Below, piece by piece: positions 13,230-46,923 of a DNA stretch of 47,928 nucleotides. The notes beneath the pieces were generated by a model. That model had not been told where the DNA came from. It made no database searches and saw only the letters and a list, made by a program, of their open reading frames with translations. How positions within the stretch are numbered: position 1 is the first letter of the stretch; each line of letters opens with the position of its first letter. The position numbers and the translations under genes are program-made. This stretch comes from a virus: the IMG/VR virus record IMGVR_UViG_3300025168_015140, positions 1 to 47,928 of that record. One strand, 5' to 3'.

Positions 13230-13233
13230 AAAA

Positions 13234-13701
13234 ATGGCTGATACAGTGATGAATGGAAGTAAGGTCACCTTACACTATAAGGGAACTTTGCAAGATGGTG
13301 AAGAGTTTGATAGTTCTTATGGTCGTGATGCCCCTATGGAGGTTACGGTTGGAGACGGTGGACTCATCAAGGGATTTGATGATGCATTGTTAGAAATGGA
13401 AACTGGAGACACGAAGACATTTACATTGACGCCTGAAGATGCGTATGGAATGCCAAACCCAGATGCATTTACGATCCTTGAGAAGTCAATGTTCCCAGAT
13501 GACTTTGTGTTTAACGAGGGACTTGTAGTTCCTCTACAGGGCCCAGATGGTGGACCATTTCCGGCAGTTATTACTGAGGTTGGGGATGAGAATGTAACAG
13601 TTGATCTAAACCACCCAATGGCAGGCAAAGATCTTACTTTTGAGATTGAAGTATTGTCAGTAGATAACAGTGAAACTAACGATGAAACTACTTCTAGCTA
13701 G
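13234..13701 (+). CDS. FKBP-type peptidyl-prolyl isomerase, SlyD-like
   Basis: 155 residues from ATG 13234, with AAGGGGA about ten bases upstream. SKVTLHYKGTLQDGEEFDSS and GGLIKGFDDALLEMETGDTK are the FKBP core. LTPEDAYGMPNPDAF and the segment to DLNHPMAGKDLTFEIEVL give the insert-in-flap and closing strand of the SlyD/FkpB branch. These enzymes isomerise prolyl bonds and act as chaperones. The His/Cys-rich metal tail of SlyD is absent. A phage copy could fold virion proteins (inference). Confidence 0.88.
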   Translation: MADTVMNGSKVTLHYKGTLQDGEEFDSSYGRDAPMEVTVGDGGLIKGFDDALLEMETGDTKTFTLTPEDAYGMPNPDAFTILEKSMFPDDFVFNEGLVVPLQGPDGGPFPAVITEVGDENVTVDLNHPMAGKDLTFEIEVLSVDNSETNDETTSS

Positions 13702-15565: not shown

Positions 15566-16606
15566 ATGTCCGTAGACTTCAAAACTTTCGTGAGCCTAGC
15601 ACCTTCAGTGAGTGCAGCCAAACTTCCAGTACTTCTCCGTGGTCGCCACGGTATCGGCAAGAGCCAAGTTGTTTATCAGCTTGCTGCTAAAGCCGGCTTG
15701 CCTGTGGTTGAGCGTCGTGCCAGCCAGATGACCGAGGGTGACTTGGTTGGGCTGCCAAGTGTGGAAGGTAATCGGACCAGCTTCAATCCGCCTGACTGGT
15801 TCAAGGTGGCTTGTGAAGAGCCTGTCTGCTTATTCCTTGATGAGGTTGATCGAGCTACCTTAGAAGTTCGCCAAGGGATTTTCGAACTGACCGACAGTCG
15901 TAAACTGAATGGCCACAACCTTCACCCTGATACCATCATCTTTGCTGCCGTCAACGGCGGTGAGCACGGTGAGCAGTACCAAGTGAATGAGATGGATCCT
16001 GCTGAGCTTGACCGCTGGAGTGTTTGGGACATCGAACCCACGGTTGAAGACTGGTTGGCTTGGGGCAAAGATAATGTTGACTCCCTGATCTGGGACTTCA
16101 TTAATCAGAACCGGGCTCACCTTGAGCACAACGCTGACATCGAGCCCAACAAGCGTTACCCTAGCCGTCGTAGTTGGGATCGACTCGACAAAGTTCTTCA
16201 GCAGGCTGATGCTCTTGAGGCTAGCCCAGCAATGTTCAACTTGGCTCAGAGCTTCGTCGGCTTTGAAGCGGCTGTCGCTCTCAACGACTTCGCTAAGAAC
16301 TACGAGCGGATTGTGACGGTTGAACAACTGCTCAACGGTGAGCGTGTCGATGCTCTGGCTGCGATGTCACTCAACGAGCATTGCGCTATGATCGAAAAGC
16401 TTGAGTCTGAAGAGATCTGCAAAGCAGAGTTCTCTGATGACCACGTCACCCATCTGGCTGAGTACTTTGTCAGCCTACCCAGCGAAGCAGCTATGAAGTT
16501 GTGGAGTGTAATCTCCCAAGCTGGGGTTCAAGAAAACGTCGTGAAGTTTCACGGCGCTAATAATGGAGCGGTTGGTTCACACCTCTCCAAGATCTTGGGA
16601 GCCTAG
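15566..16606 (+). CDS. MoxR-type AAA+ ATPase
   Basis: 346 residues. Walker A is G29-RHGIGKS36 and Walker B is CLFLDEVDRA (D92-D95). GLPSVEGNRTSFNPPDWF and AAVNGG match the MoxR loop and sensor 1. MoxR ATPases act as chaperones that insert cofactors or remodel a VWA-domain partner, and that partner is the next gene. The C-terminal 120 residues are helical lid and unknown. It has its own strong promoter and a terminator, so MoxR and the VWA protein are made from separate but matched transcripts. Confidence 0.85.
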   Translation: MSVDFKTFVSLAPSVSAAKLPVLLRGRHGIGKSQVVYQLAAKAGLPVVERRASQMTEGDLVGLPSVEGNRTSFNPPDWFKVACEEPVCLFLDEVDRATLEVRQGIFELTDSRKLNGHNLHPDTIIFAAVNGGEHGEQYQVNEMDPAELDRWSVWDIEPTVEDWLAWGKDNVDSLIWDFINQNRAHLEHNADIEPNKRYPSRRSWDRLDKVLQQADALEASPAMFNLAQSFVGFEAAVALNDFAKNYERIVTVEQLLNGERVDALAAMSLNEHCAMIEKLESEEICKAEFSDDHVTHLAEYFVSLPSEAAMKLWSVISQAGVQENVVKFHGANNGAVGSHLSKILGA

Positions 16607-16649
16607 TTCTCTCTCTCTCAACCCTCTGGGTTCCTTAGAGATCGGCAAG

Positions 16650-16680
16650 AGTCCAGCGTGGTGCTGGGCTTTTGTTTTTT
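16650..16680 (+). terminator. Rho-independent terminator
   Basis: Stem AGTCCAGC/GCTGGGCT followed by TTTTGTTTTTT, closing the MoxR gene. Confidence 0.85.
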
Positions 16681-16697
16681 GGGGAACAAATTAAAAC

Positions 16698-16725
16698 TTG
16701 ACAGGTAGTGTATCCGTGGTAGTAT
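16698..16725 (+). promoter_or_regulatory. Sigma70-type promoter, family copy 3 (VWA gene)
   Basis: TTGACA (16698-16703), 16-base spacer ending TATCCGTGG, TAGTAT (16720-16725) with extended TG, then GAGGGAGAGACA before the ATG. Confidence 0.88.
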
Positions 16726-16743
16726 ATGAATGAGGGAGAGACA

Positions 16744-17955
16744 ATGAGTTTTGATCTAAAGCTACATGCCTACCGCTTGCTTATGGATGAGCCGTTCTTT
16801 GCTGCTCTGAGCCGTAAGATTGAGAAGCGTGCTAGCACTGCCATTCCAACTGCTGGGGTTCGGGTCTGTCCTGACACTGCTCAGTTCGAAATGATTTACA
16901 ACCCTGAGTTCTTTGCCAGCCTGCCTGAAGAGCATGTGCGTGGTGTACTCAAGCACGAGTTCTACCACTTGATCTTCGAACACGTTACCAATCGTAAGCC
17001 TGCCGGCATCGATCACAAGTCTTGGAACATTGCTGCTGACCTAGCTATCAATAGCCACTTGGTCGGTGAGTTGCCAGAGAATGCCTGCATGCCGGGCGTT
17101 GGTCCTTTCGCTAATATGCCTGCCGGACAAACTGCTGAGTGGTACTTGGCTAACTTCCCTACCAGTGATGACAACGAGGGTGAAGGTGAAGGTGAGAGCG
17201 GTGAGGGCGAAGGAGAACCCGGTGACGGTGATGGCTCTGGTCAGCCCGGCGGTGAAAGCTTTGATGACCACTCCGGTTGGGATGATGCTGATGCCAGCCC
17301 TGAGCAACAGGCTGCCAATCAGATGGCTAAGGAACGTCTCAAGCAATCAATGAAGCAGGCTGCCAAAGAGGCCAACAACTCTACCAAGGGCTGGGGCTCA
17401 GTTTCAGGGGAAGTTAAAAAAGATATTATCAAAAGACTAGAGAGTAAGGTAGACTGGCGGAAGGTACTCAGGTACTTCATCAAGACCAGCCAGCGTGCTA
17501 GCAGACGCTCCAGTGTGAAGCGTATTAACAAGCGCTATGCCTACATCCATCCCGGCAAGAAGGTTCAGCGACAAGCAAAGATTGCCATCGCTATCGACCA
17601 GTCCGGCTCTGTCTGCGATGATATGCTTCAAGCGTTCTTCGGTGAGTTGAATGGTCTGGCTAAGCTGGCAGAGTTTACGGTCATCCCCTTCGACACTGAG
17701 GTAGCTACCGATAAGGTCTACGTCTGGAAGAAAGGATCAAGCAAGCCAGCGGAGCGAGTGCTGTCCGGCGGTACCTGCTTCAATGCTCCTACCAAGTATG
17801 TTAATGATAACAACTTTGACGGTGTCATTATCCTGACGGATATGGAAGCACCTAAGCCTAAGGCTTGCAAAGCACAGCGGATGTGGATGACTGATGAGCG
17901 GGGTGCCAGCAATCCCTACTTCAAAACCAATGAGCGTGTAATTCAAATAGACTAA
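16744..17955 (+). CDS. VWA-like putative metallopeptidase (DUF2201 type), MoxR partner
   Basis: 403 residues from ATG 16744, placed right after GGGAGAGACA. The N-terminal domain carries a zinc-peptidase motif, H71-EFYH75, with a further His (LIFEH). A Gly/Glu/Asp-rich linker lies at about residues 140-185. The C-terminal VWA-like domain has the MIDAS start D285-QSGS289 (AIAIDQSGSV) and ends with GGTCF and VIILTDME. Proteins with this exact order pair with MoxR ATPases in many bacteria, where the ATPase remodels metal-dependent complexes; the substrate is unknown. Confidence 0.83.
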   Translation: MSFDLKLHAYRLLMDEPFFAALSRKIEKRASTAIPTAGVRVCPDTAQFEMIYNPEFFASLPEEHVRGVLKHEFYHLIFEHVTNRKPAGIDHKSWNIAADLAINSHLVGELPENACMPGVGPFANMPAGQTAEWYLANFPTSDDNEGEGEGESGEGEGEPGDGDGSGQPGGESFDDHSGWDDADASPEQQAANQMAKERLKQSMKQAAKEANNSTKGWGSVSGEVKKDIIKRLESKVDWRKVLRYFIKTSQRASRRSSVKRINKRYAYIHPGKKVQRQAKIAIAIDQSGSVCDDMLQAFFGELNGLAKLAEFTVIPFDTEVATDKVYVWKKGSSKPAERVLSGGTCFNAPTKYVNDNNFDGVIILTDMEAPKPKACKAQRMWMTDERGASNPYFKTNERVIQID

Positions 17956-19909: not shown

Positions 19910-20257
19910 ATGTTAGCTAAGTCATTGTTTTTACTTATATTTGCCAATATGTTTAATCAAGCATACCAACTGCAAAATATTACTTGCCCGAAATGGGTTC
20001 CGGGATCTGACGAAGTTCTCCCGGTTGGTGTAACACTGTCTCCGGAATTGGAACTGGCAAACCGGGTGCGCTGCTATTGTGAAGTAGTCAAACAAAAAGA
20101 AAGGGAGTGTGTTACTATGAGAGTGCCTTGGAACCTCTGTAAGGCACGCACGGACCATTGGGTGCAGAATAACCTCAAACTTAAACAGGCGCTGGTGAAC
20201 ACTAACGGAGTGATGCCGCTGCCACAAGTAGATCGGATGATTAATGTCGAACCGTAG
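19910..20257 (+). CDS. Exported Cys-containing protein
   Basis: 115 residues. MLAKSLFLLIFANMFNQAYQ is a plausible signal peptide. The mature part has five Cys (ITCPKWV, RCYCEVVK, RECVTMR, NLCKART), suggesting disulfides outside the cytoplasm. Its end overlaps the pilin-like gene, so a joint envelope function is likely. No family is recognised. Confidence 0.6.
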   Translation: MLAKSLFLLIFANMFNQAYQLQNITCPKWVPGSDEVLPVGVTLSPELELANRVRCYCEVVKQKERECVTMRVPWNLCKARTDHWVQNNLKLKQALVNTNGVMPLPQVDRMINVEP

Positions 20258-20648
20258 GGGTATGACTCTCTTGGTAGTATTGATGATGAGTGCCCTTATT
20301 GGTATAAGTGCAATGTTATTATATTCTACCACGAATATGGAAACCATGATCGCCGGCAACATTCGGCGCATCAACCAAGCAAAAATTTCGGCGGCGAGCG
20401 GGCTCAATCATTTCACTGCTCTTCGTTTGGATTACAACACACTTAGACAGCGGGCTGGCGTCGTGCAAACTTTGCAGATCCTCCCTAGGACTCCACTATC
20501 CCCTAAAACTTCCTACGAGGTAAAAGTTCTCTTTTCTCCCGTTCTAAGTGAAGGGCAGTATGTGGTCGAAAGTATCGGTTATTATACCAAGGGTGACAAA
20601 GTTTTGTCCTCTCATTCAATAAAGGCCCTTTTTCAGGGCGGTCAATAA
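20244..20648 (+). CDS. PilX-like type IV pilin-related protein
   Basis: 134 residues. The N-terminus RRGMTLLVVLMMSALIGISAMLL has a prepilin-type cleavage site (after Gly) and a long hydrophobic helix. TNMETMIAGNIRRINQAKISAASGLNHF then matches the PilX/minor-pilin N-terminal pattern (E-x-x-x-A-G-N ... A-x-x-A-A-x-x-G-L). The usual Glu5 of major pilins is absent, as in PilX proteins. PilX is a minor pilin that primes or modulates type IV pili. A phage copy might alter pili to block superinfection or change receptor display (inference). Confidence 0.7.
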   Translation: MSNRRGMTLLVVLMMSALIGISAMLLYSTTNMETMIAGNIRRINQAKISAASGLNHFTALRLDYNTLRQRAGVVQTLQILPRTPLSPKTSYEVKVLFSPVLSEGQYVVESIGYYTKGDKVLSSHSIKALFQGGQ

Positions 20649-20686: not shown

Positions 20687-20824
20687 ATGATCACTAAAAA
20701 TAAAATGTGGAACCTAATTCGAAAAGAGTTGGTAATTGCTGAGCGTTCAAAAAAGCTTACCCAGAAAGTTTTAGAAAAGATAAAGGACATCCCACAAGAT
20801 GAAAATAAAGATAGAGAGGCTTAG
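20687..20824 (+). CDS. Small basic helical protein
   Basis: 45 residues: MITKNKMWNLIRKELVIAER then a second helix. GAGG lies six bases before the ATG. The amphipathic, Lys/Arg-rich first helix is similar to the leaders of the following proteins. It overlaps the next gene by 26 bases. Confidence 0.5.
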   Translation: MITKNKMWNLIRKELVIAERSKKLTQKVLEKIKDIPQDENKDREA

Positions 20825-21011
20825 GGAAATAGTTAGAGAGAAGATCCAAGAGGCTGCTGCTGAAGGGAAATTTCAAAGCTATGCCAAGGGTAGTTTTTCA
20901 TCGATGATAAGCCTTTTAGGTAAGGGCGGCAATAAGAATACTCCGCCATTTAAACACAAAGCTGCAAAAGCAGGAAAGTCTGGACCTGATGATTCAGGGT
21001 ATACAGCCTAA
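20799..21011 (+). CDS. Small protein with capsid-targeting-like leader
   Basis: 70 residues. MKIKIERLREIVREKIQE followed by AAAEG: an amphipathic helix ending in IQE, then Ala, like the T4 leader cut after [LI]xE by the prohead protease. The remaining 50 residues are Gly/Lys/Ser-rich and probably disordered (GKGGNKNTPPFKHKAAKAGK), as expected for a small internal head protein. Function is unknown. Confidence 0.5.
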   Translation: MKIKIERLREIVREKIQEAAAEGKFQSYAKGSFSSMISLLGKGGNKNTPPFKHKAAKAGKSGPDDSGYTA

Positions 21012-21838
21012 TGGAACATTTTCCTAAATGGAATCGGTTCATAAATGAATCAGTAGAAAAATTATATGTTCACGGATATGTGAAGCCTGAGAATTCTTTC
21101 TATACCCTGAGTGAGTGGGAAAATTTATTTGTTAATAAAGTGTTAAGCTTTCAGAAAGAAGGACATTATATTAGTCATTCTCACGGTAACATTGTTGGAC
21201 CTAAAGAATTACAAAATATCATTGATGAGTTTTATGGTTTCCAACTGAACGTTGATGTTGATCGATATGATTTATTGACAACAAAAAATGTTCTAGATCA
21301 TATCGAGGATTTTGCTAACCATAGGTACTGGTCACTGGCCAATGAGTTTGGACAATACTTTGAGGACATCTCTCAACTTAGGTTTGCATATTTTTATTCT
21401 CGTGGAGATTTAGAACCTTATGTTTTAGTGGACGATGCTTTCACACAACAAATCTACGGTTCAACTAATAATCCAAAAATTCTATACCATTATACTCATA
21501 CAGAAGGGGTGGATAGAATCCAGAGATCTATTGATAGCGGTAATCAGTTTGATATATCTGCATATACAGTCGCAGAGCGTGATTTTTTCCGAGCTAAGTC
21601 TAATATGATAATGGAGTTCGAAGGAAACGTCAGGGCAGGATTTCGAAGCGATGTGAAATCATATTCAGTAAGCAATGGAAGAAAATGTGTTAATGTCCAC
21701 AGGCTTGGTTATCCGGGCAAAGAAAAAGATAATCTTTGTACTGACCTTGAGAATGATTGTAACGGAGATTTAAAAACATCCTTGTGGAACGAATTCATTG
21801 TAACACCAACTAGAATAATTAACGTTACTAAAAAATGA
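21011..21838 (+). CDS. Putative ADP-ribosyltransferase-like protein 1
   Basis: 275 residues starting MEHFPKWNRFINE-S, a short leader-like helix ending in INE. The C-terminal part has features of the ART fold: ILYHYTHTEGVDRIQRSID (His160 of an H-Y-T motif), ISAYT as a possible S-T strand, and SLWNEFIVTPTRIINV with E261 as a possible catalytic or structural Glu. The first 150 residues are unrecognised. It lies beside a better ART candidate at 22527. Confidence in the enzymatic role is modest because the second Glu is not evident. Confidence 0.45.
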   Translation: MEHFPKWNRFINESVEKLYVHGYVKPENSFYTLSEWENLFVNKVLSFQKEGHYISHSHGNIVGPKELQNIIDEFYGFQLNVDVDRYDLLTTKNVLDHIEDFANHRYWSLANEFGQYFEDISQLRFAYFYSRGDLEPYVLVDDAFTQQIYGSTNNPKILYHYTHTEGVDRIQRSIDSGNQFDISAYTVAERDFFRAKSNMIMEFEGNVRAGFRSDVKSYSVSNGRKCVNVHRLGYPGKEKDNLCTDLENDCNGDLKTSLWNEFIVTPTRIINVTKK

Positions 21839-22527
21839 TAGTGGAAGAGATGGTCAGAGGAAGAGCACTCGATCGATATGCCACCTTGGCCAGCAGAGAA
21901 ACAATAAACCACTTAAAGAGCCAAAGTTTTATAGAATCTTTCAATTCTAACGATAGGGCAACTTTCAGACTAGAGGTCCCTCAGGTCACTGCAAAAATAG
22001 ATTTTCTAAGGAATATAATTATTTCAATCCAAAAAGGAAAAAGTATCAAGTCTAATGGTTCATATGAATTCAACTTAGATGCTGATGAAGATCAACGTAA
22101 AGATTCTGATATTTTAGTTAATCTTGTATTACCTCACAAATATACTGAAGATTTTTCTTTTATCTCTTGTTTGATCCCAGAACTTAAAGAGACCTTTCGT
22201 CACGAATTAGAACACAGCAGTCAAAGTACAGAAGATCTAATGGCAGTTCAAAGAGTCGTACCGAACCGAGAGATTTGGAAAGATATAGAAACAGCAGAAA
22301 ATTATTACCTATCGGACGCTGAAATTCAAGCTCACATTGCCGGAATATATAAGAAAGCAAAAAGTTTTAAGAAACCCTCTACAAGTGTCTTAAAAAAGGT
22401 TCTTGTTGGAATATATAATACTGGACTTCTTTACAATCTTGATTCTAAAAAACTATCTAATTTAATTGATAAGATACAAGATCGTTGGACAGACTATTTA
22501 TTTAAGAGATACCCTAGGGCACAATAA
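21835..22527 (+). CDS. Putative zinc metallopeptidase (HELEH)
   Basis: 230 residues. ETFRHELEHSSQS holds an HExxH motif (H123, E124, H127). About 40 residues on, YYLSDAEIQAHIAGIYKKAK has a Glu suited to be the third ligand of a gluzincin-type site. Start and stop both overlap neighbouring ART-like genes by a few bases, so the three are almost certainly co-translated. Target unknown; it could process capsid or host proteins. Confidence 0.65.
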   Translation: MIVEEMVRGRALDRYATLASRETINHLKSQSFIESFNSNDRATFRLEVPQVTAKIDFLRNIIISIQKGKSIKSNGSYEFNLDADEDQRKDSDILVNLVLPHKYTEDFSFISCLIPELKETFRHELEHSSQSTEDLMAVQRVVPNREIWKDIETAENYYLSDAEIQAHIAGIYKKAKSFKKPSTSVLKKVLVGIYNTGLLYNLDSKKLSNLIDKIQDRWTDYLFKRYPRAQ

Positions 22528-23636
22528 TGAAACTATTAATGGAACAATGGCGAAAGTTTTTAAAGGAAGGCATCAGCGATGTCGTCTACCATTATACTAA
22601 CGGACTTGAGAAGGGTGCCAAGATTCTAGAACAGAATAAGTTTATGGCGTCCGGTGGATTCACCAAAGACGTTGAGTCTGAGTTAGGTAAAGGTAAACTT
22701 TATTATTTCTCCACCGCAAGAACCCCAGCCAATGCTTACACGGGAAACTATCCACAGGGTGTTATCTTTAAACTAGACGGTCGTGCTTTGGGGCAGAAAT
22801 ATAAAGGAGTTCCACTAGACTATTGGGCAACAAAGAAGCGTTCTTCTAAAAAGGCAGCCAACCTTGACCCCGGAGAGACAGAAGGTTTTGAGGCAGAAGA
22901 CAGAATACTTTTAGACGAGCCTTATATCGAGGATGCCGACAGATACATTGACGAAATACATTTTGCTATTCCTTTATATCGGTTTGAGAAAGGAATGTTT
23001 GATGACAAGCCTACCAGAAAAGCAGGCAGTTCCATAGAAAATTATCAAATGGAAGGTTTACGAAAAGGTGTAGCTGTGGCGGAACAAAGAAACATCCCTT
23101 ACTACATCCACATTGATAAACAAACTTTCCCCTTTGTTGAGGTTGGTAAGAAGAAAGCACTTACTAGCTTGGCTGCATTTATGGAAGAGGTAGAAAAGTC
23201 CGGTGTTAAGGTCAATGAACCCCGTGACCAAGCATCGGTTTATACGAGTAGAAGAGGAGCGGAGATCGGAGAGGACGAAGTATTCCTGTATGTTCAGGCA
23301 GCCCAAGATATCCTAGCCGGCAAAGAGCAATTTGAAGGAGCCAGCGTAAAGGACAAGGTTGGATATAAAGATGAAAGCCAGCGAAAAGATTTGGGCAAAG
23401 TGATGTTCCGAAATCTTACTGGTTCGCCTAATATGCAGGGTCGCTTTTACAGAGACATTGATAACCCACTTCACAATATAAGCTCTAATCCCAAAGCCCG
23501 CAAGACTTTGGAGACGCTCGCCTCACTTATGCGGAGCACAAAACAAAAGACGATAAAAGATTTTGAAAACTATTTAAATCAGGTTTACAAACAAAACCAT
23601 CCCGATGGGGACCCAACAGGATATAGGAACTCATGA
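22527..23636 (+). CDS. Putative ADP-ribosyltransferase-like protein 2 with virion leader
   Basis: 369 residues. MKLLMEQWRKFLKE-G looks like a T4-type capsid-targeting leader cut at LKE/G. Directly after come the ART motifs in order: VVYHYTNGLEKGAKIL (His22), LYYFSTARTPANAY (S62-T63), VIFKLDGRALG, and EGFEAEDRILLDEP with the E122-x-E124 pair expected for the catalytic Glu. ARTs transfer ADP-ribose from NAD+ to proteins or nucleic acids; T4 Alt, packaged with a similar leader, modifies host RNA polymerase. The C-terminal 200 residues are unknown. Overlaps both neighbours. Confidence 0.6.
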   Translation: MKLLMEQWRKFLKEGISDVVYHYTNGLEKGAKILEQNKFMASGGFTKDVESELGKGKLYYFSTARTPANAYTGNYPQGVIFKLDGRALGQKYKGVPLDYWATKKRSSKKAANLDPGETEGFEAEDRILLDEPYIEDADRYIDEIHFAIPLYRFEKGMFDDKPTRKAGSSIENYQMEGLRKGVAVAEQRNIPYYIHIDKQTFPFVEVGKKKALTSLAAFMEEVEKSGVKVNEPRDQASVYTSRRGAEIGEDEVFLYVQAAQDILAGKEQFEGASVKDKVGYKDESQRKDLGKVMFRNLTGSPNMQGRFYRDIDNPLHNISSNPKARKTLETLASLMRSTKQKTIKDFENYLNQVYKQNHPDGDPTGYRNS

Positions 23637-23923
23637 AAATTACCAAAGAAGAATTAAAACAAATTATTAAAGAAGAATTGAACGAAGCATTCCGAATGGA
23701 AGCTGATTTTAAACCCGGAACTATGGTTAATTGGAATGTCTTAGCAAAGGTTGTAAAAACTACTTCTTCCGGTCGGCAAAAGGTTGATTATGATAGAATG
23801 ACGATGACCGGCGCTGTTCAGGAATTGATTACAAGCGGTGGCGCTGTAGGCGGAGTTGCAATAATCCAAGACCCCGATGGAAATTCTCATGAAGTAGAGG
23901 TCTCAGAACTTAGTCACGCTTAG
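23633..23923 (+). CDS. Small protein with leader and SH3-like domain
   Basis: 96 residues. MKITKEELKQIIKEELNE-A is a leader-like amphipathic helix ending LNE/A. Then DFKPGTMVNWNVLAKVVKT ... GGVAIIQDPDGNSHEVEVSEL follows the SH3-like family plan. It is the only clear case that joins the two recurrent modules of this genome. ATGA overlap with the ART-like gene. Confidence 0.55.
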   Translation: MKITKEELKQIIKEELNEAFRMEADFKPGTMVNWNVLAKVVKTTSSGRQKVDYDRMTMTGAVQELITSGGAVGGVAIIQDPDGNSHEVEVSELSHA

Positions 23924-23960: not shown

Positions 23961-25154
23961 ATGAGTACTTTTAAAGAACATAAAACAATCGCAGATCGAG
24001 CGGCAGGTGATCGAACCCGTCATCGTCAAAAGATTGAGAAGGCCATCAAAGAAAGCATCAAAGATGTGGTGGCTGAAGAAAGCATTATAGGGCAAAACGG
24101 AAACAAGAAAATAAGAATACCAGTCAAGGGTATTAAAGAACATCGTTTTGTTTATGGAGCGAATAAGAACAATAAACAAGTTGGCTCTGCCCAAGGGAAA
24201 GAAGTTAACCAAGGTCAACGCATAGGTCACCGACGCCGCCAACGACCAACAGAGGGACAGGGCGATAAACCGGGTAATCAGCCCGGTGAAGAAATGTATG
24301 AGATAGAGATGTCCCTAGAAGAACTAGCGGGTTATCTATTTAATGATCTTGAACTGCCAGAGCTAGAAAAGAAAAGCTTTAAATTTACTACACAAGAGAA
24401 GATGAAACGAAAGGGTAAGCGCCCTTACGGTATCCGCCCACGCTTATCAAAAAAAGAGACTATTAAACAAAAGATTAGAAGAAAAAAGGCTGCTATCAAG
24501 GCGGGGTCTTATGATCCTGAGAGCGGTGAAAGATTTACCTTTCACGAGAGTGATTTAAGATATAAGCATATAGCCCCTGTCAAAAAGGAAAATACAGCAG
24601 CCGTTGTGTTTTTTGTAATGGATGTTTCTGGGTCTATGTCCAAATCTAAAAAGTTTCTTGCTCGTAGTTTTTTCTTCCTTCTTTATCAGTTTTTGAATCA
24701 CAAATATTCTTCTATAGATGTAGTCTTTATTTCCCATACTGCTGAGGCTAATGAAGTCAATGAAGATCAGTTTTTCACACAAGTACCCAGCGGGGGAACT
24801 CTTGTATCTACTGGATTAAAAAAGGTAGAAGAAATTGTTGAAAAACGGTATCACCCCAACAACTGGAATATATACACTTTCTATTGTGGAGATGGAGATA
24901 ACTGGAGTATTGATAACAAAGAATCTCTAGATGCCTTCAAGAGATTGAAAGAAATAAATCAAGCTATGTGTTATACAGAAATTGGAAAGCTCTACGATTA
25001 TCGAGAGTATTCTTTATTTGCGGGCGGGAATCCTGAGAAGCGCCTATGGGACTGGACCAAATTAGCAGAGGATAAAAACTTTAAAAGAATAAGACTTCAA
25101 GAAAGTAAAGACATTTGGCCTGCTTTCAAAAAACTATTTGGAGGAAAATCATAA
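23961..25154 (+). CDS. yeaH: YeaH/YhbH family (DUF444) VWA-like protein
   Basis: 397 residues, close to bacterial YeaH/YhbH length. The N-terminus DRTRHRQKIEKAIKESIKDV ... EHRFVYG and the Gly/Gln/Arg-rich linker ending PGEEMYEIEMSLEELAGYLF are hallmarks of the family. The VWA-like core has MIDAS D221-VSGSM and ends ...SGGTLVSTGLKKVEEIV, FYCGDGDNW. In bacteria it works with the PrkA kinase and SpoVR in stress, stationary phase or sporulation; its biochemistry is unknown. The next two genes are exactly those partners. TAATG overlap with SpoVR. Confidence 0.92.
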   Translation: MSTFKEHKTIADRAAGDRTRHRQKIEKAIKESIKDVVAEESIIGQNGNKKIRIPVKGIKEHRFVYGANKNNKQVGSAQGKEVNQGQRIGHRRRQRPTEGQGDKPGNQPGEEMYEIEMSLEELAGYLFNDLELPELEKKSFKFTTQEKMKRKGKRPYGIRPRLSKKETIKQKIRRKKAAIKAGSYDPESGERFTFHESDLRYKHIAPVKKENTAAVVFFVMDVSGSMSKSKKFLARSFFFLLYQFLNHKYSSIDVVFISHTAEANEVNEDQFFTQVPSGGTLVSTGLKKVEEIVEKRYHPNNWNIYTFYCGDGDNWSIDNKESLDAFKRLKEINQAMCYTEIGKLYDYREYSLFAGGNPEKRLWDWTKLAEDKNFKRIRLQESKDIWPAFKKLFGGKS

Positions 25155-26470
25155 TGGCTGATTGGTCAATGGAAGAACTTCAGGACTGGGATAATAAAAT
25201 ATGTTCCCTTGGTAAAAAATACGGGCTTGATTGGTACCCTATCGATTATGAAATTTGTGACTATAAGGAAATGATAGGGCATATGGCATACACAGGTTTG
25301 CCAACTCACTACAGGCACTGGTCATTTGGAAAATCCTTTGATCGCATACAGACAGAATATAATCTGGGTATGTCTGGTCTTCCCTACGAGATGATTATAA
25401 ACTCTAATCCAAGTATATCATATCTAATGACTGAGAATCCTATGCCGACTCACGTACTTACAATGGCACATTGTGTGGGACATAGCGATTTCTTTAAGAA
25501 CAACCGTATGTTTGCTGAGACTGGTGCGGATACTGCAATTGATCGTTTTAAAGCCTCCGGTAAACGAGTTAAAAAATATATGGAAGATCCCAACATTGGA
25601 GTTGATGCAGTGGAGAGAATCCTAGATGCTTGCCACGCTATAAAATATCAAGTTCCTCGCACACCGGGAATAAAAAGACGCAGCCACAAAGAAATGAAAG
25701 AATATTATAAAAGATTGATATTAAATGATAAGTCTGGGCGGTGGAATAGTTTTAATTTAAACAAACTTCCTCTAGAGCCTGATACAAACTTACTGGCATT
25801 TATTGCGGAACATAATAGACATCTTGAAGAATGGGAAAGAGATCTTATTCGAATAGTTGAGCAGGAATCTCTTTATTTTATACCACAAGCTTGTACTAAG
25901 ATTATGAATGAAGGCTGGGCTTGTATGATCCACGAAAAGATAGTGAATGAATTAGGTATACCTGATGATTATTATCTTTCCTTCATTCGATTGCATAATC
26001 AAGTAGTTAGACCACATCTTGGAAGAATCAACCCATATCATCTTGGGTTCAAAATATTTAAGTATATTGAAAAAAATCACGGATTTGATGAGTGCTTGCG
26101 TGTGCGTGAAACACATAGTGATGAAAGTTTTCTTAAAAACTACCTTAATGAAGAATTGTGTAAGGAACTGAATTTGTTTAGTTATTCATTCCATCAAAAA
26201 GATGGGTTTAACAAAATCACCGAAGTTTCTGGGGAAGATACTTGGAGAACTGTTCGTGACGACCTAATTAAAGGTGTAGGCTTAAATAGTATTCCGGTCG
26301 TTATGGTCAAAGAATTATTGAAAGATGGAACGCTTATTTTGCAGCACGAACACGATGGAAGAGACTTAGAGTTGTCAGAAGCAAATAAAGTGTTCGAACA
26401 TATTAACGAATTATGGCCCGGTGAAGTAAGATTCACTACCATTATAGAAGAAGAAACTTGGGAGTTCTAA
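25154..26470 (+). CDS. spoVR: SpoVR family protein
   Basis: 438 residues from ATG 25154 in a TAATG overlap, with GGAGGAAA upstream. WYPIDYEICDYKEMIGHMAY, THYRHWSFGKSFDRIQTEY, MTENPMPTHVLTMAHCVGHSDFF and MNEGWACMIHEKIVNEL are the conserved SpoVR/YcgB blocks, with many candidate metal-binding His and Glu residues. SpoVR acts in spore cortex formation in Bacillus; YcgB is a stationary-phase protein in enterobacteria. Molecular activity is unknown. Slightly shorter than cellular members (about 470-510). Confidence 0.93.
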   Translation: MADWSMEELQDWDNKICSLGKKYGLDWYPIDYEICDYKEMIGHMAYTGLPTHYRHWSFGKSFDRIQTEYNLGMSGLPYEMIINSNPSISYLMTENPMPTHVLTMAHCVGHSDFFKNNRMFAETGADTAIDRFKASGKRVKKYMEDPNIGVDAVERILDACHAIKYQVPRTPGIKRRSHKEMKEYYKRLILNDKSGRWNSFNLNKLPLEPDTNLLAFIAEHNRHLEEWERDLIRIVEQESLYFIPQACTKIMNEGWACMIHEKIVNELGIPDDYYLSFIRLHNQVVRPHLGRINPYHLGFKIFKYIEKNHGFDECLRVRETHSDESFLKNYLNEELCKELNLFSYSFHQKDGFNKITEVSGEDTWRTVRDDLIKGVGLNSIPVVMVKELLKDGTLILQHEHDGRDLELSEANKVFEHINELWPGEVRFTTIIEEETWEF

Positions 26471-26473
26471 TAG

Positions 26474-28417
26474 ATGTCAAAAACAAACAAATCTGATAAG
26501 TTCCTAAAACTTGTCGGAGAGCACAAAGAAAAGAAAAAGGTTGAAAAGTTCCATGGAACTCTAGAAGAATATCTTAAGATTCTAGAGACTGCGCCCGGCG
26601 TTGCTAAACTTGCTCATAAAAGATTATATGATGCTATCGAGAAAGAAGGTGTAACTAGAATGTCTACATCAGACTCCCGGTGCAATAAACTCTTTGGTGG
26701 GACTGAGTTAAGGACCTATGATTATTTTCAAAATAGTTTTTTTGGCATGGAGAGATCTCTAGCTAAGATTATGCGTTTCCTTCGTTCGGCGTCTTTAAAA
26801 GGCGAAGAGAGTCGTCAGGTTCTTTTACTTCTAGGTCCAGTTGGGGCAGGCAAATCTGCTCTATTGGAACGGATCAAGGGAGCACTTGAAACTTGTGAAC
26901 CAATGTATCACATAGATGGCTGTCCCATACACGAAGAACCTCTGCATCTAATCCCCAGATCATTGAGAGAAGAATTTCAGAGTATATATGGAATTCGTAT
27001 CGAGGGAGATCTGTGCCCCGTATGTCGTTTTAAATTAAAAGAAGAGTATAACAATGATTATACTGCAATGCCTATAAAACAATCTTCTTTCTCAGTACGT
27101 GGCAGAAGAGGTGTTGGGGTTGTTCCTCCAATGGATGCAAATAGTCAAGACGTGACAGTTTTGGTTGGTAGTGAGGATATCTCTAAATTAGATATGTATT
27201 CGGAAGATGATCCTAGAGTGTTGTCTCTTAATGGAGCCTTCAATGTTGGCAACCGTGGTATTGTTGAATTTGTTGAGGTGTTCAAAAATGAGATTGAATT
27301 CCTTCACACTATGATCACAGCTACACAGGAGAAATCGGTTCCGTCGCCCGGCAAGGGTCCTATGATATACTTTGATGGCGTGATCCTCGCCCATTGCAAT
27401 GAAGCTGAGTGGAACAAATTTAAGTCTGAAAATACCAACGAAGCTATCTTAGATCGTATTGTTAGAGTTAATGTTCCATACTGCCTTGAATATTCGGAAG
27501 AGCAAAAGATCTACGAGAAGATGTTAGGCCTTTCTGATTTTGATGGACACGTTGCGCCGCATACTTTGGAAATAGCTTCTATGTTTGCTGTTCTTAGTCG
27601 TCTTCATCCCTCGAATAAAGTTGATGCCCTAACAAAGATGAAACTTTATGATGGATCTGAAGTAATAGAAAAAGGTCATGTTAAAAAGATTGATATCAAT
27701 GATCTTCGTGATGAGTCCAGAGACGAAGGAATGACAGGAATTTCTACTCGGTTTATTATGAAGGCAATAGATTCTGCTTTGTCGGACAGCGAAAAGAATA
27801 TGGTTACTCCTATCTCTATTCGTGAGGCATTAATCAAGCAAGTGAAAGACCAAATAGTTGTAGAAGATGATCGTAATCGTTTCCTTGATTTTCTAGGTAA
27901 GACATTGCACGAAGAATATTTAAATATCTTAGAAAAAGAGATTACAAAAGCGTTTGTCTCAGCTTATGATGAACAAGCCGAGGCGTTATTTGACAATTAT
28001 CTAGATCATGCTGAAGCATATGTTAATATGTCTACAGTAAAAGATAGAGTTACAAATGAAGAAATAGCACCTGATGAAAAGTTCCTAGCTTCTATAGAAG
28101 AACAGATTGGAATCATCGGAACGTCAAGAGAAAATTTCCGAGTTGATATTACTGCCTTTATGTTTTCCAAGCTTCGCCGAGGTGAGAAAGTTGATTGGAG
28201 ATCTTATGCTCCTCTTCGTGAAGCTATCGAAAGTAAGCTCACTTCTTCTGTTAAGCAGATTTCACGAATTGTGACAAAATCAAAAAGCAGAGATAAGAAA
28301 CAGCAAGGCAAATATAATGAAATGGTAGAGACCCTCATAAAAGAATACGGATATAATGAGGATTCAGCCGAAGAGGTAATTAAATTCGCTGCAAACAACC
28401 TCTGGAGAGACAGTTAG
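26474..28417 (+). CDS. prkA: PrkA/YeaG serine protein kinase
   Basis: 647 residues, the full cellular length. The AAA domain has Walker A G121-PVGAGKS128 after RSASLKGEESRQVLLLL. GCPIHEEPLHLIPRSLR, IEGDLCPVCRFKL and EFVEVFKNEIEFLHTMITATQE are family hallmarks. The C-terminal kinase-like part includes DEGMTGISTRFIMKAID. Cellular PrkA is a stress-induced Ser/Thr kinase (with protease activity reported for some members) acting in nitrogen starvation, stationary phase and sporulation. Third gene of the yeaH-spoVR-prkA operon. All key motifs appear intact, so it is probably active. Confidence 0.95.
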   Translation: MSKTNKSDKFLKLVGEHKEKKKVEKFHGTLEEYLKILETAPGVAKLAHKRLYDAIEKEGVTRMSTSDSRCNKLFGGTELRTYDYFQNSFFGMERSLAKIMRFLRSASLKGEESRQVLLLLGPVGAGKSALLERIKGALETCEPMYHIDGCPIHEEPLHLIPRSLREEFQSIYGIRIEGDLCPVCRFKLKEEYNNDYTAMPIKQSSFSVRGRRGVGVVPPMDANSQDVTVLVGSEDISKLDMYSEDDPRVLSLNGAFNVGNRGIVEFVEVFKNEIEFLHTMITATQEKSVPSPGKGPMIYFDGVILAHCNEAEWNKFKSENTNEAILDRIVRVNVPYCLEYSEEQKIYEKMLGLSDFDGHVAPHTLEIASMFAVLSRLHPSNKVDALTKMKLYDGSEVIEKGHVKKIDINDLRDESRDEGMTGISTRFIMKAIDSALSDSEKNMVTPISIREALIKQVKDQIVVEDDRNRFLDFLGKTLHEEYLNILEKEITKAFVSAYDEQAEALFDNYLDHAEAYVNMSTVKDRVTNEEIAPDEKFLASIEEQIGIIGTSRENFRVDITAFMFSKLRRGEKVDWRSYAPLREAIESKLTSSVKQISRIVTKSKSRDKKQQGKYNEMVETLIKEYGYNEDSAEEVIKFAANNLWRDS

Positions 28418-28425
28418 AACAAAAA

Positions 28426-29403
28426 ATGTCACAGTTGTCAAAAAAACTTCAAAAACTAGATAAATTTGTTGGTAACACACCCACCGTAAGGCTAGAGTGT
28501 CAATTTGAAGGCAGAAAACTGTATGTTTACGCCAAATACGAAGCTTGGAACTTCTCCGGTAGTATAAAAGACCGTATGGCACTAGAGATATTAAAAGGAG
28601 CATCCGAGTTAAATCTATTAGAGTCTGGCGACACTATAGTAGAAGCTACTAGTGGAAATACTGGGATTGCTTTTGCTGCAATGGGCGCATACCTTGGACA
28701 TCCTGTACAAATATATATGCCAAACTGGCTTTCAGAAGAAAGAAAACGTATATTACGATTTTATGGAGCCAATCTTATTGAAATAACAGCTAAAAAAGGT
28801 GGCTTTCTAAAATGTATCGAACTAGCAGACGAAAAAAGTAGAAAAAAAGGGTTTTTTGGTCCCAAACAATTCAATAATAGTTGGAATGTGTTGTCCCACA
28901 AGAAAAATACAGCCCCAGAACTCGAAAAAACACTAAATGATAATAACTTAGGTGATTTAGACGTATTTATAGCCGGTATGGGTACCGGTGGTACAATAAT
29001 GGGCTTCTATCACTACTTTTCACAAAAAAAGAATAATTTTAGGGCCTATCCTATCCTACCGGACAAGAATGAGGACGGTGGGCACCGTATTGAAGGCATT
29101 GGGGACAGTTTTATACCAAAAATAGTGAATTTACAAGCACTTAGCCCTGTTTTGCGGGTAAATGACTCTGATGCTATCAATATTTCTAGGCAAATCAATA
29201 AGTTAGGTCTATCTGTGGGTATTTCATCTGGAGCTAATATTTTTGGGGCTATTTTAAAAGCTTCTGAGTTACCAGATGGATCTAACGTTGCAACTATATT
29301 GTGTGATGATAATAAAAAATATTTAACCACTGACTTGTGTAATGATGTTGAAGAGCACTGTTCTATGGATATAAAAATACTAGATTATGAATTATTTTCT
29401 TGA
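28426..29403 (+). CDS. cysK: Cysteine synthase family PLP enzyme
   Basis: 325 residues, normal CysK length. NTPTVRLECQF, the PLP lysine K48 in GSIKDRMA, ATSGNTGIAFAA for the substrate loop, AGMGTGGTIMGF for the PLP phosphate, HRIEGIGDSFIP and GISSGANIFGAIL. CysK makes cysteine from O-acetylserine and sulfide. Cystathionine beta-synthase without a regulatory domain is an alternative. It starts nine bases after prkA, so it is probably in the same operon. Cysteine supply could support the NifU-like protein and glutaredoxin encoded nearby. Confidence 0.88.
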   Translation: MSQLSKKLQKLDKFVGNTPTVRLECQFEGRKLYVYAKYEAWNFSGSIKDRMALEILKGASELNLLESGDTIVEATSGNTGIAFAAMGAYLGHPVQIYMPNWLSEERKRILRFYGANLIEITAKKGGFLKCIELADEKSRKKGFFGPKQFNNSWNVLSHKKNTAPELEKTLNDNNLGDLDVFIAGMGTGGTIMGFYHYFSQKKNNFRAYPILPDKNEDGGHRIEGIGDSFIPKIVNLQALSPVLRVNDSDAINISRQINKLGLSVGISSGANIFGAILKASELPDGSNVATILCDDNKKYLTTDLCNDVEEHCSMDIKILDYELFS

Positions 29404-30889: not shown

Positions 30890-31071
30890 TGAACTGCTTT
30901 CAAATCGAAGTCCGTGGCGTAACCTTTACAATCTGGGCACCTACTATTCAGGATGCCTTAGAAACCTTTATGATTGATATGGAGTTTTATGAGGTACCCA
31001 AAGACTTGGCAACCTATGGCGAGGCGGATATATCAGAAGAGATCTTTCCGGTTGAGTGTGGTGGATTTTAA
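30889..31071 (+). CDS. Hypothetical acidic protein
   Basis: 60 residues with GGAGG six bases upstream: MNCFQIEVRGVTFTIWAPTI ... Acidic, alpha/beta. TAATG overlap with the NifU-like gene. No family is recognised. Confidence 0.6.
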   Translation: MNCFQIEVRGVTFTIWAPTIQDALETFMIDMEFYEVPKDLATYGEADISEEIFPVECGGF

Positions 31072-31370
31072 TGAGTACAAAAGATAGCAATTTTAAAGAT
31101 AAGTTATTAAGTTTTGTCAAAGATGACATCAATCCGTCCCTAGCTGGACACGGTGGCTGGATAGAGGTCTATTCAATAAAGGAAGATACTGGAGTCATTG
31201 AATTAAGGATGGGTGGCGGATGTCAGGGCTGTGGGGCTAGCGCAGCAACCTTGCAACACGGAATCAGGACGGCCTTAATGGATGAGTTCACAGAGATAAA
31301 TGAAGTTTTAGATGTTACTGATCACGGTGCCGGAGAAAACCCTTTCTATATGGGCAATCCTTTTAAATAA
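31071..31370 (+). CDS. NifU C-terminal domain-like Fe-S scaffold
   Basis: 99 residues from ATG 31071. The pattern LLSFVKDDINPSLAGHGGWIEV ... GVIELRMGGGCQGCGASAATLQHGI is the Nfu/NifU scaffold domain with the Fe-S ligands C51 and C54. Nfu proteins carry 4Fe-4S clusters as homodimers and deliver them to target enzymes. Its presence with cysteine synthase and a glutaredoxin suggests the phage supports Fe-S enzymes of its own or the host's. Confidence 0.9.
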   Translation: MSTKDSNFKDKLLSFVKDDINPSLAGHGGWIEVYSIKEDTGVIELRMGGGCQGCGASAATLQHGIRTALMDEFTEINEVLDVTDHGAGENPFYMGNPFK

Positions 31371-32922: not shown

Positions 32923-33480
32923 ATGAATAAAGATATTGATAGTAAAAAGCTACTGTACTCGAAGGGTAACAACGATGAGTGTTACACTCCTGACTATGGA
33001 GTTGAACCCATCCTTGAATACATTCCAGAGGGAGCAATCGTTTGGTGTCCCTTCGATGACCATACCAGTGAGTTTGTAAAGCAGATCTCTAAGCAGAATA
33101 CTGTAGTGGCTTCTCACATTGATGAGGGAAAAGACTTCTTTGAATATGAGCCCGAGGAATGGGATGTGATTATTTCTAATCCGCCCTTCACAAACAAACG
33201 TAAGTTTTTTGAGCGTGCTCTATCTTTTAATAAACCATTCGCTTTGATTATGACAAACACTTGGCTGAACGACTCAGCCCCCAAGCAGTTGTTCAAAGAT
33301 AGGGACCTACAGCTTTTGATGTTTGATAAGCGAATGAAGTTTGTTTCTCCTGATGGCAGAGATAATAATAAGATTACATTTAGTAGCAGTTATTATTGTT
33401 GGAACTTCTTACCCAAGCAGATCATTATGAAGGAATTAAATATTCCCAAAAAGGCTAAGAATGTTAAAAGTTCTCAGTAA
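32923..33480 (+). CDS. Adenine-N6 methyltransferase-like protein
   Basis: 185 residues. DVIISNPPFTNKRKFFERAL carries the NPPF motif IV of amino-methyltransferases. DECYTPDYGVEPILEYIP and IVWCPFDDHTSEFVK stand where the SAM-binding strand and loop lie. This family is frequent in phages, often annotated vaguely; the target (DNA, RNA or protein) is not known. It sits between tRNA-Arg and TilS, so an RNA target is possible. Confidence 0.7.
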   Translation: MNKDIDSKKLLYSKGNNDECYTPDYGVEPILEYIPEGAIVWCPFDDHTSEFVKQISKQNTVVASHIDEGKDFFEYEPEEWDVIISNPPFTNKRKFFERALSFNKPFALIMTNTWLNDSAPKQLFKDRDLQLLMFDKRMKFVSPDGRDNNKITFSSSYYCWNFLPKQIIMKELNIPKKAKNVKSSQ

Positions 33481-34063
33481 GCTGCCCAGAGAAATTGGTA
33501 TTGCCGTCTCAGGTGGGCCAGATTCTATGGCTATTTTGGATTTCCTTAATAATAATCACGAAGTGACAGCAGTCTATTTTGACCACGGTACAGATTTTGG
33601 AAAGAAGTGTAAAAGATTTGTAAAGAACTTTTGTGATAATAAAGATATCCCTCTTGTTATTGGTGTTAATTACAGTGGGTGTCCTTCGAAAAAATCTTTG
33701 GAAGAACATTGGAGAGATGAGCGTTATAAGTTCTTTCATAGTTTTGATATGCCAATTGTGACAGGGCATAACTTAGACGATGTGATTGAGTGGTTTTTGT
33801 TCTCTTCAATACACGGAAAGAGTAAAGTTATTCCGTATAACAACAAAAACGTTATTAGACCCTTTATCTCTACTTCTAAACGCTCGCTGGAAGACTGGTG
33901 TATTAGGAAGGAAGTTCCATTCCTCACAGATCCAGCAAACGCAGACAGAAAGTTTATGAGAAGCATTATCAGGCACGATATTATGCCTCACGCTCGGCTG
34001 GTAAATCCGGGCATGGAAAAAACATTTAAGAAACTTGTAGAAAAGGAGTATAATAACATCTGA
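33461..34063 (+). CDS. tilS: tRNA(Ile)-lysidine synthase-like PP-loop ATPase
   Basis: 200 residues, the N-terminal catalytic domain length; the C-terminal domains of long TilS are missing. PP-loop S17-GGPDS22; LEEHWRDERYKFF; VTGHNLDDVIEW; VIRPFISTSKRSLEDWC; PFLTDPANADRKFMRSIIRH. TilS converts C34 of tRNA-Ile(CAU) to lysidine so that it reads AUA as Ile. The next gene is a CAT-anticodon tRNA, its expected substrate. It overlaps the methyltransferase gene by 20 bases. Confidence 0.88.
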   Translation: MLKVLSKLPREIGIAVSGGPDSMAILDFLNNNHEVTAVYFDHGTDFGKKCKRFVKNFCDNKDIPLVIGVNYSGCPSKKSLEEHWRDERYKFFHSFDMPIVTGHNLDDVIEWFLFSSIHGKSKVIPYNNKNVIRPFISTSKRSLEDWCIRKEVPFLTDPANADRKFMRSIIRHDIMPHARLVNPGMEKTFKKLVEKEYNNI

Positions 34064-34073
34064 AAGGATTTCA

Positions 34074-34150
34074 AGGGGGATAGCTCAATTGGTTAGAGCA
34101 CTGGTCTCATAAACCATAGGTTCCGGGTTCAAGTCCCGGTCCCCCTACCA
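34074..34150 (+). tRNA. tRNA with CAT anticodon, probably Ile2 (lysidine)
   Basis: Acceptor AGGGGGA/TCCCCCT, anticodon arm TGGT-CTCATAA-ACCA with CAT, T-arm CCGGG-TTCAAGT-CCCGG, encoded CCA. A CAT tRNA can be Met or Ile2; adjacency to TilS favours Ile2. Confidence 0.93.
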
Positions 34151-34151
34151 C

Positions 34152-34227
34152 GCCCGAATAGCTCAATTGGTAGAGCAGCGGTTTTGTAAACCGAAGGTTG
34201 CGGGTTCAATTCCTGCTTTGGGCACCA
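34152..34227 (+). tRNA. tRNA-Thr (TGT)
   Basis: Acceptor GCCCGAA/TTTGGGC, anticodon loop TTTGTAA with TGT, T-arm GCGGG-TTCAATT-CCTGC, encoded CCA. One base after the previous tRNA. Confidence 0.93.
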
Positions 34228-34229
34228 TT

Positions 34230-34317
34230 GGAAGAGTGTCCGAGTGGTCGATGGTGAGGCACTAGAAATGCCTTGTACAGCGATGTACCGTGGGTTCGAA
34301 TCCCACCTCTTCCTCCA
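34230..34317 (+). tRNA. tRNA-Ser (AGA)
   Basis: Class II tRNA: acceptor GGAAGAG/CTCTTCC, anticodon arm AGGCA-CTAGAAA-TGCCT giving AGA, long variable arm GTACA-GCGA-TGTAC, T-arm GTGGG-TTCGAAT-CCCAC, CCA. A34 is rare for bacterial Ser tRNAs. Confidence 0.9.
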
Positions 34318-34343
34318 GCCTCACCTTCGGGTGGGGCTTTTTT
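34317..34343 (+). terminator. Rho-independent terminator after tRNA cluster
   Basis: Nine-bp stem AGCCTCACC/GGTGGGGCT with TTCG loop and T6; it begins at the last base of the tRNA-Ser CCA. Confidence 0.92.
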
Positions 34344-34390
34344 ATTTAACATTTCTTTTTTTGTGCCATAAACTCTCCATAGGAGTTTAA

Positions 34391-34879
34391 ATGTACAAAG
34401 AATTGATAAATGAAGTGCCGGACTTCCCAACTGAGGGAGTGTCTTTTAAAGATATTAGCCCCCTACTAAAGTCAGATCATTTTAATAAGGCTATTGAGGA
34501 TCTTGGTAAATCATTTGGTGATTTAAGCGATGTAGATTATTTTATAGGCGTTGACTCCAGAGGGTTTATTTTTGCATCAGCTTTATCTGTTATGTTTAAC
34601 AAGGGTCTTGTATTGATACGAAAAAAAGGAAAGTTACCTCCACCTGTTGTCAGTGAGTCTTACAGTTTAGAATATGGCAAAGACTCACTAGAGATCTCTC
34701 CGGGAACTGGAAATGTTATTTTGATTGATGATGTCTTGGCCACGGGCGGTACTTTAAGGGCAGCTATCAGCTTATGTGAAAAAGCAGGATATATTGTAAA
34801 AGACAGCGGAGTTCTTATCGATCTATCCTTTCTTCACGGAGATGAAATAAAAACTAAGAGTCTGATTACATATGAGTAA
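34391..34879 (+). CDS. apt: Adenine phosphoribosyltransferase
   Basis: 162 residues. VPDFPTEGVSFKDISPLL is the APRT start; IGVDSRGFIFASAL and RKKGKLPPPVVSESY are base-recognition and flexible loops; VILIDDVLATGGTL is the PRPP motif. It makes AMP from adenine and PRPP. AGGAG precedes the ATG. The next gene, an MTA/SAH nucleosidase, would produce its adenine, and the two overlap by eight bases, a strong functional link. Confidence 0.93.
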   Translation: MYKELINEVPDFPTEGVSFKDISPLLKSDHFNKAIEDLGKSFGDLSDVDYFIGVDSRGFIFASALSVMFNKGLVLIRKKGKLPPPVVSESYSLEYGKDSLEISPGTGNVILIDDVLATGGTLRAAISLCEKAGYIVKDSGVLIDLSFLHGDEIKTKSLITYE

Positions 34880-35435
34880 AAGAATAATTGTCTTATGTGC
34901 TTTACCAGAAGAGGCACAAGGTTTACTTGAAAAATACTTTCCAACCTTTTATACAGGAGTGGGGAAAGTAAATGCAGCGATGACAGCTACTCGTTGTATT
35001 ATAGAACACAACCCTGATCTTATTATTAATTTTGGAACTGCTGGCAGTAAAAATATTAAGAAGCACACTCTTGTTGATTGCACTAAATTTATCCAAAGAG
35101 ATATGGATATTAAAGAGTTGGGTTTTGAATTTGGAGTTACTCCATATGATGAAGTCCCATCAATATTGGAATTCAAGTCTGAAAATCCTCTGAATACTTT
35201 TAGCACTTGTGGAAGTGGCGATACGTTTGTAAGCGATATGTCCAAGGTTCCTGCTGATGTTGTTGACATGGAAGCTTACGCAATTGCTAAATGTTGTTAT
35301 CAAAACGATGTGGATTTTGTTTCCTTTAAATATATTACCGATGGAGCAGATGGAGAAGCCGCTAATGATTGGCTTGAAAACTGCGAAAAGGGTGCAAAAG
35401 AATTTTTAAAAATAATTGAACATTATTGTGAATAA
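34872..35435 (+). CDS. MTA/SAH nucleosidase-like protein
   Basis: 187 residues, shorter than the about 230 of cellular MTAN. YTGVGKVNAAMTATRCII, LIINFGTAGSKN, VVDMEAYAIAKCCYQND and FKYITDGADG match the PNP/UDP phosphorylase fold; the ME of VDMEAYA contacts ribose. It would release adenine from methylthioadenosine or S-adenosylhomocysteine, relieving product inhibition of methyltransferases, with APRT salvaging the adenine. Exact nucleoside is not certain. Confidence 0.85.
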   Translation: MSKRIIVLCALPEEAQGLLEKYFPTFYTGVGKVNAAMTATRCIIEHNPDLIINFGTAGSKNIKKHTLVDCTKFIQRDMDIKELGFEFGVTPYDEVPSILEFKSENPLNTFSTCGSGDTFVSDMSKVPADVVDMEAYAIAKCCYQNDVDFVSFKYITDGADGEAANDWLENCEKGAKEFLKIIEHYCE

Positions 35436-37854: not shown

Positions 37855-38162
37855 GTTCAAAAGAAGTAAAGTTTAAATTGTGTAAGGAAGACCTACGCCC
37901 AATGGCAGCAACGATGGTAAATCTAATAATAAAGAGATTGTCGGATAAACTTAACAAAAATGTTTCTGAAACTGGACAAGCTTTAATAAATGACAGTAAT
38001 ATTGAAATATTGGAAAAACTTCAAAAGCTAGTTAATGATCTACAATTGTCTATTACAGAAATACAAGATACAGTCGATTTAATTCAACATATAAAAGTTG
38101 AATCATCTGCCGATGCAGAGGTCCTCGAAGATTCTCTTGATCTGAAGAAATACAGTCTCTGA
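37851..38162 (+). CDS. Hypothetical coiled-coil protein
   Basis: 103 residues in an ATGA overlap with the J-domain gene. Long helices (KLQKLVNDLQLSITEIQDTV) suggest a coiled coil. Its 3' end overlaps the 3' end of the convergent lipoprotein gene by 60 bases. Function is unknown. Confidence 0.6.
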   Translation: MSSKEVKFKLCKEDLRPMAATMVNLIIKRLSDKLNKNVSETGQALINDSNIEILEKLQKLVNDLQLSITEIQDTVDLIQHIKVESSADAEVLEDSLDLKKYSL

Positions 38163-46922: not shown

Positions 46923-46923
46923 T

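Follow-up and report, generated by a model that had tools for sequence, protein, structure and literature searches.

Why would a phage carry the genes for DUF444, SpoVR and PrkA, three proteins of bacterial stress survival, one of which bears a contested kinase label? The question is raised by the window, i.e. the whole stretch of DNA analysed here, a linear IMG/VR record of 47,928 bases that is probably a fragment of a larger genome, and the phage trio offers a minimal unit in which to study it. A first reading, made from the sequence only, described a complete set of three adjacent, overlapping genes with a full-length PrkA. The open reading frames (Table 1) and Pfam domains matching nearly the full models bear out the complete set and the adjacency, the genes lying head to tail on the + strand. 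Overlap holds for the first pair, with SpoVR starting at an in-frame ATG at 25154 and sharing one base with the DUF444 stop, but not for the second, where 3 bases separate SpoVR from PrkA. The Pfam matches are far beyond chance: PF04285 for DUF444 (E 5.7e-106), PF04293 (E 3.1e-121, model positions 1-404 of 407) and SpoVR_C PF24755 (E 7.3e-08) for SpoVR, and AAA_PrkA PF08298 (E 2.5e-140, 2-358 of 358) and the C-terminal domain PF06798 (E 6.3e-79, 1-255 of 255) for PrkA. Each gene also has a PHROG family of its own (phrog_19072, phrog_35217 and phrog_22605), hence viral copies were already known to databases.

Table 1. Position of the trio and of its neighbouring genes in the window.
Feature	Coordinates	Strand	Remarks
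Two genes upstream of the trio, 369 aa and 96 aa	22527..23923	+	Context, outside the unit
DUF444 (YeaH/YhbH-type), 397 aa	23961..25154	+	N-terminal region and C-terminal vWA domain with complete MIDAS
SpoVR (YcgB-type), 438 aa	25154..26470	+	Conserved HxxGH, NEGxAxxxH and H281
PrkA (YeaG-type) AAA+ protein, 647 aa	26474..28417	+	AAA and C-terminal domains both complete
PrkA Walker A GPVGAGKS, residues 121-128	26834..26857	+	Conserved across 84 sequences from viruses and 103 from cells
Cysteine-synthase-like PLP enzyme	28426..29403	+	PF00291, E 1e-53; context gene

Whether this DNA is viral at all bears on everything that follows, since the trio could instead belong to a host chromosome or to mis-binned cellular DNA. 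The window itself invites such a reading: TerL and gp23 capsid genes were looked for within it and neither was found, and it holds many metabolic genes. It is, however, an IMG/VR record, collinear over the whole trio neighbourhood with two long contigs, L053 (190 kb) and L006 (172 kb), which carry relatives of both upstream genes at the corresponding place. TerL and the T4-type capsid gene gp23 are both present on these contigs, as well as on that of a further close relative, L003. Moreover, PHROG families exist for all three genes, and gene order and trees (see below) set the trio apart from every cellular operon sampled. A non-viral origin is extremely improbable and already refuted; only if the collinear contigs of 170-190 kb were chimeric would it stand. 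Among long records, gp23 was found in 13 of the 15 checked, the two without it being the window and one other, and in none of 14 control genomes. Among cultured phages, Flavobacterium phage immuto and Microcystis phage Mel-JY01 have the closest terminases, with about 45% identity. Carriage by a phage, as first proposed, is upheld by the collinear contigs and by the trees, which set the trio in a viral clade.

The trio is widespread among viral relatives. Of the 163 relatives that a scan with the window PrkA yielded, 80 (64-90% identity) were kept; SpoVR accompanies PrkA in 80 of these 80 loci and DUF444 in 79, the exception being truncated at the contig start. The order DUF444>SpoVR>PrkA was found in 79 of 80 loci of a second PrkA scan (exception at a contig end) and in 75 of 78 loci of a scan started from SpoVR (exceptions all at contig ends). 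In every untruncated viral locus of the PrkA and SpoVR scans, then, the trio is complete and in one fixed order; viral carriers amount to more than 100 distinct contigs, counted from contig names. The flanks vary strongly by subclade: depending on the subclade they hold CysK, PhoH, a 441-aa protein or a cluster of capsid, neck and sheath genes. The 369-aa upstream gene accompanies the trio in 12 of 81 loci and the 96-aa one in 11, both within the window's subclade only, and the cysteine-synthase-like gene, which starts 8 bases after prkA, in 11 of 81 loci, in part of that subclade only. Since the flanking genes change between subclades while the trio stays fixed, the trio is a conserved unit and the unit of selection. 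The 441-aa gene, downstream of the trio in one subclade, matches a GroEL PHROG and no Pfam family. A scan started from the terminase gave related contigs of up to 196 kb, among which PrkA is present on 1 of 19 checked and absent in 18, although these contigs may be incomplete. Probably not every member of the wider phage clade has the module; as related phages without PrkA exist, it is common but not essential to the whole clade.

Regarding its origin, gene order and phylogeny agree in separating the viral trio from cells. The order PrkA>DUF444>SpoVR occurs in 77 cellular genome-contig loci, three of which end before SpoVR, and DUF444 follows PrkA in the other cellular groups sampled too, E. 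coli included; this order is not found in the viral trio. Thus the PrkA-YhbH(DUF444)-SpoVR operon of Clostridia and Deltaproteobacteria encodes the same three families, with shared catalytic and MIDAS residues, but PrkA comes first there and last in the viruses; in E. coli YeaG and YeaH lie together and SpoVR/YcgB elsewhere on the chromosome, whereas the viral trio is contiguous. In separate PrkA, DUF444 and SpoVR trees a single branch splits off the viruses (SH-aLRT 98, 99 and 99). In a joint tree, for which E. coli-type sequences served as outgroup, the viruses form a clade (100/100) beside Clostridia and Deltaproteobacteria, with the order among them unresolved and a cellular sampling biased towards close kin. 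The phylogeny suggested earlier as a check hence returns a viral clade for each protein, and trees putting the trio inside one bacterial genome did not arise. PrkA is 56-60% identical to that of its nearest cellular kin, Clostridia and Deltaproteobacteria. A proteobacterial donor was considered and rejected: about 200 sampled Pseudomonadota genomes hold no cellular close-type PrkA, which leaves Clostridia and Deltaproteobacteria as the nearest cells. Three loci from metagenome-assembled genomes (L085-L087) were likewise rejected as cellular counter-examples, showing the viral order and falling inside the viral clade; most plausibly, they represent phage contigs that ended up in bacterial bins.

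Within the viruses, module divergence tracks terminase divergence (Mantel Spearman 0.85, reached in 0 of 2000 permutations, 21 contigs), the module being the more conserved of the two (lowest identity 55% vs 41% over the same number of contigs). Among close kin dN ranges from 0.09 to 0.19 with synonymous sites mostly saturated. The correlation with the terminase, together with low dN against saturated dS, fits a module that has for the most part been inherited vertically, under purifying selection, and at times lost.

The sequence-only reading left open whether the set had been reported from other phages. Other phages do carry it, and it is already annotated in Thermus and huge phages; in addition, the Ralstonia jumbo phage RsoM2USA (MG752970) has SpoVR (ORF28) and PrkA (ORF30) close together (PMC8504454), a likeness to the window that is known for those two genes. 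The Thermus phages phiYS40, YS40_Isch, phiLo, MN1 and Lalka (Lalka8) carry the whole trio in the same order as the window, with an extra gene between SpoVR and PrkA in YS40_Isch, but their PrkA is only about 31-35% identical to the window's and they form a separate clade in all three trees. Huge phages LR745206, LR756502, LR756504 and LR756511 also hold all three families; unlike the window, three of the four show the cellular order PrkA>DUF444>SpoVR, and in LR756502 SpoVR lies about 240 kb away. Two huge-phage sequences (L166 and L167) cluster with cells of the E. coli type and a third (L165) falls elsewhere, as separate acquisitions would do. Given the distinct Thermus clade and the E. coli-type placement of these two huge phages, the trees indicate that phages acquired such a module several times. 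The cultured Thermus phages make the question of its role testable in the laboratory. On the bacterial side, prkA and spoVR are present in T. aquaticus (PMC4605624).

Among the open-access papers searched, none was found in which the trio is treated as a unit conserved in viruses; the new part is the old, permuted and obligately complete viral version of it. Viral spoVR itself was reported in 2021 from an oxygen-minimum zone as the most abundant 'sporulation' gene of the viruses there (PMC8940887). We reject spoVR as a sporulation gene, because the family is also present in non-spore-formers such as E. coli. Our data suggest that, where reports of viral 'sporulation genes' rely on spoVR alone, what they see may be one member of a three-gene complex.

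Concerning key residues, viral PrkA keeps those conserved in cells, i.e. Walker A (G121-S128), N260, E265, E268, N309, D327 and R328, while A129, adjoining Walker A, differs from cellular sequences. DUF444 keeps the MIDAS residues D221, S223, S225, T280 and D311, and SpoVR keeps H106, H110, E253, H260 and H281, all conserved in cells. The motifs are therefore intact, as had been claimed from the sequence: ATPase and MIDAS residues are kept, and inactivating changes in the kinase site did not appear. On the structural side, PDB entries 9xip, 9xiq and 9xir hold a PrkA homologue (E 2.9e-97). The vWA part of DUF444 is predicted well in an AF2 model, which matches many vWA domains in the PDB, including the AAA+-linked NorD (9qhe) and the Rea1/MDN1 MIDAS. 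NorQ-NorD and Rea1/MDN1 combine an AAA+ ATPase with a MIDAS-bearing vWA partner, as fold resemblance and gene linkage predict for PrkA and DUF444; further AAA+/vWA remodelling pairs are found in the MoxR-type class. PrkA differs from the NorQ and Rea1 pairs in belonging to its own AAA+ family, in having its own C-terminal domain and in the constant presence of a third protein, SpoVR. The HxxGH and NEGxAxxxH motifs of the latter, together with H281, suggest a metal site. Its AF2 model (pLDDT 82) gave no fold match in the PDB at E<=0.001, peptidases included, hence we do not claim that SpoVR is a metallopeptidase.

These features bear on what PrkA does. The earlier proposal was a stress kinase that phosphorylates host proteins and so holds the host in, or releases it from, quiescence. 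It draws on PrkA/YeaG having historically been annotated as a serine kinase, on a complete C-terminal 'kinase' domain and on the effects of YeaG on toxin-antitoxin and rpoS expression (PMC4664914). The PrkA of B. anthracis, however, showed no kinase and negligible protease activity in vitro and was described in 2026 as an AAA+ protein (PMC13001217), and many of the residues common to cells and viruses are AAA+ motifs. The kinase label is probably wrong, and we regard control of the host by phosphorylation as improbable. Similarly small is the probability we give to a complex that degrades or disarms host proteins, e.g. regulators or anti-phage defences. Weak ATP-dependent proteolysis by B. subtilis PrkA (JBC 2022, as cited in PMC13001217) and the resemblance of the SpoVR motifs to a metal site would fit it; against it stand the negligible protease activity in B. 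anthracis, a SpoVR model that matches significantly neither a peptidase nor any other solved fold, and the finding of no defence gene tied to the trio.

An always-complete trio on its own old viral branch suggests that the three proteins are one machine needed during infection, and the fact that phages keep all three in one fixed order likewise argues for one obligate machine. Tentatively, we favour an ATP-driven remodelling complex that most likely steers host starvation physiology. The ancestor of this large gp23-type phage clade would have taken the trio from a bacterium, with its gene order permuted, and the trio would since have been passed down as a unit. The phage would make its own copy during infection: PrkA would supply the AAA+ motor and DUF444 a vWA/MIDAS adaptor, and SpoVR, which probably has a metal site, would be the third partner or an effector. 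Such a complex would remodel proteins rather than phosphorylate them and, with the physiological target deduced from the cellular homologues, would most likely push the infected cell into, or keep it in, starvation or stress physiology; the gain for the phage might be replication in slow or nutrient-limited hosts. What the data themselves show is that the genes are intact, co-occur obligately, form a single viral clade and evolve under purifying selection, that ATPase and MIDAS residues are conserved, and that DUF444 has the vWA fold. Cellular YeaG is required for adaptation when nitrogen starvation is sustained (PMC4664914); B. anthracis needs its PrkA to sporulate and under osmotic stress (PMC13001217).

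Two observations count against a role in host physiology. One is the absence of PrkA from the 18 related long-contig phages mentioned above; the other is the position of the trio among head and tail genes in 17 contigs, which fits late expression better than early takeover. The main rival is virion morphogenesis, in which the complex would act late as a phage-dedicated chaperone that remodels or matures structural proteins or clears assembly intermediates. In these 17 contigs the trio lies between gp23 capsid/head-completion genes and, where the contig reaches, the tail sheath gene, and in some structural-cluster contigs (L049, L036) the gene upstream overlaps DUF444 by 4 bases. The unrelated Thermus phage Lalka8 has its trio between the portal/minor head protein and TerL, and the window further has, besides a second AAA+/vWA pair, proteins resembling ClpP and FKBP. 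On the other hand, the window's subclade and three others have the trio amid metabolic or unknown genes, and phage relatives with closely related terminases do without it. We also know of no structural role for any cellular homologue of the trio. Morphogenesis is thus possible but somewhat unlikely, and the host-starvation role is favoured over it because the cellular genes serve starvation, stress and sporulation (PMC4664914; PMC13001217). Rather doubtful, too, is that the trio could be a remodelling complex that was fully domesticated by the phages long ago and now acts on a target of its own, perhaps their structural proteins, instead of a borrowed stress module.

Several further features of the window and its relatives should be mentioned. 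Positions 15566-17955 hold an AAA_5 ATPase (346 aa, phrog_1297) and, after it, a DUF2201 vWA/metallopeptidase-like protein (409 aa, phrog_1314), so the phage may carry two AAA+/vWA-type systems. A weak metallopeptidase-family match below the cut-off (PF07737, E 7.7e-05) lies at 46903-47583. A small protein at 20244-20648, starting MSNRRGMTLLVVLMMSALIG, has a type IV prepilin-like N-terminus and no Pfam match. Several of the proteins encoded at 20799-23923 and 41955-42212 share similar short N-terminal peptides (e.g. EQWRKFLKEG, KWNRFINES, EELKQIIKEEL) that recall T4 capsid-targeting sequences. Accessory genes are located at 2373-3241, 9787-10527, 13216-13701, 31056-31370 and 33461-35435; accessory products of the window are glutaredoxin, ClpP-like, MvaI/BcnI endonuclease-like, FKBP and NifU proteins, as well as a PP-loop ATPase (TilS-like), a phosphoribosyltransferase and a member of the nucleoside phosphorylase family. 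A HAD protein at 29760-30530 matches the eukaryotic-type phosphomannomutase family (PF03332, E 5.1e-42). A lipoprotein-like protein that combines Cu-binding MopE motifs with a VWA domain is encoded on the minus strand at 38103-39377 and perhaps hints at a deltaproteobacterial-type host. Finally, in the structural-cluster subclade, open reading frames of about 2000 aa lie between prkA and the tail sheath gene (L016, 12037-18132; L042, 12182-18148).
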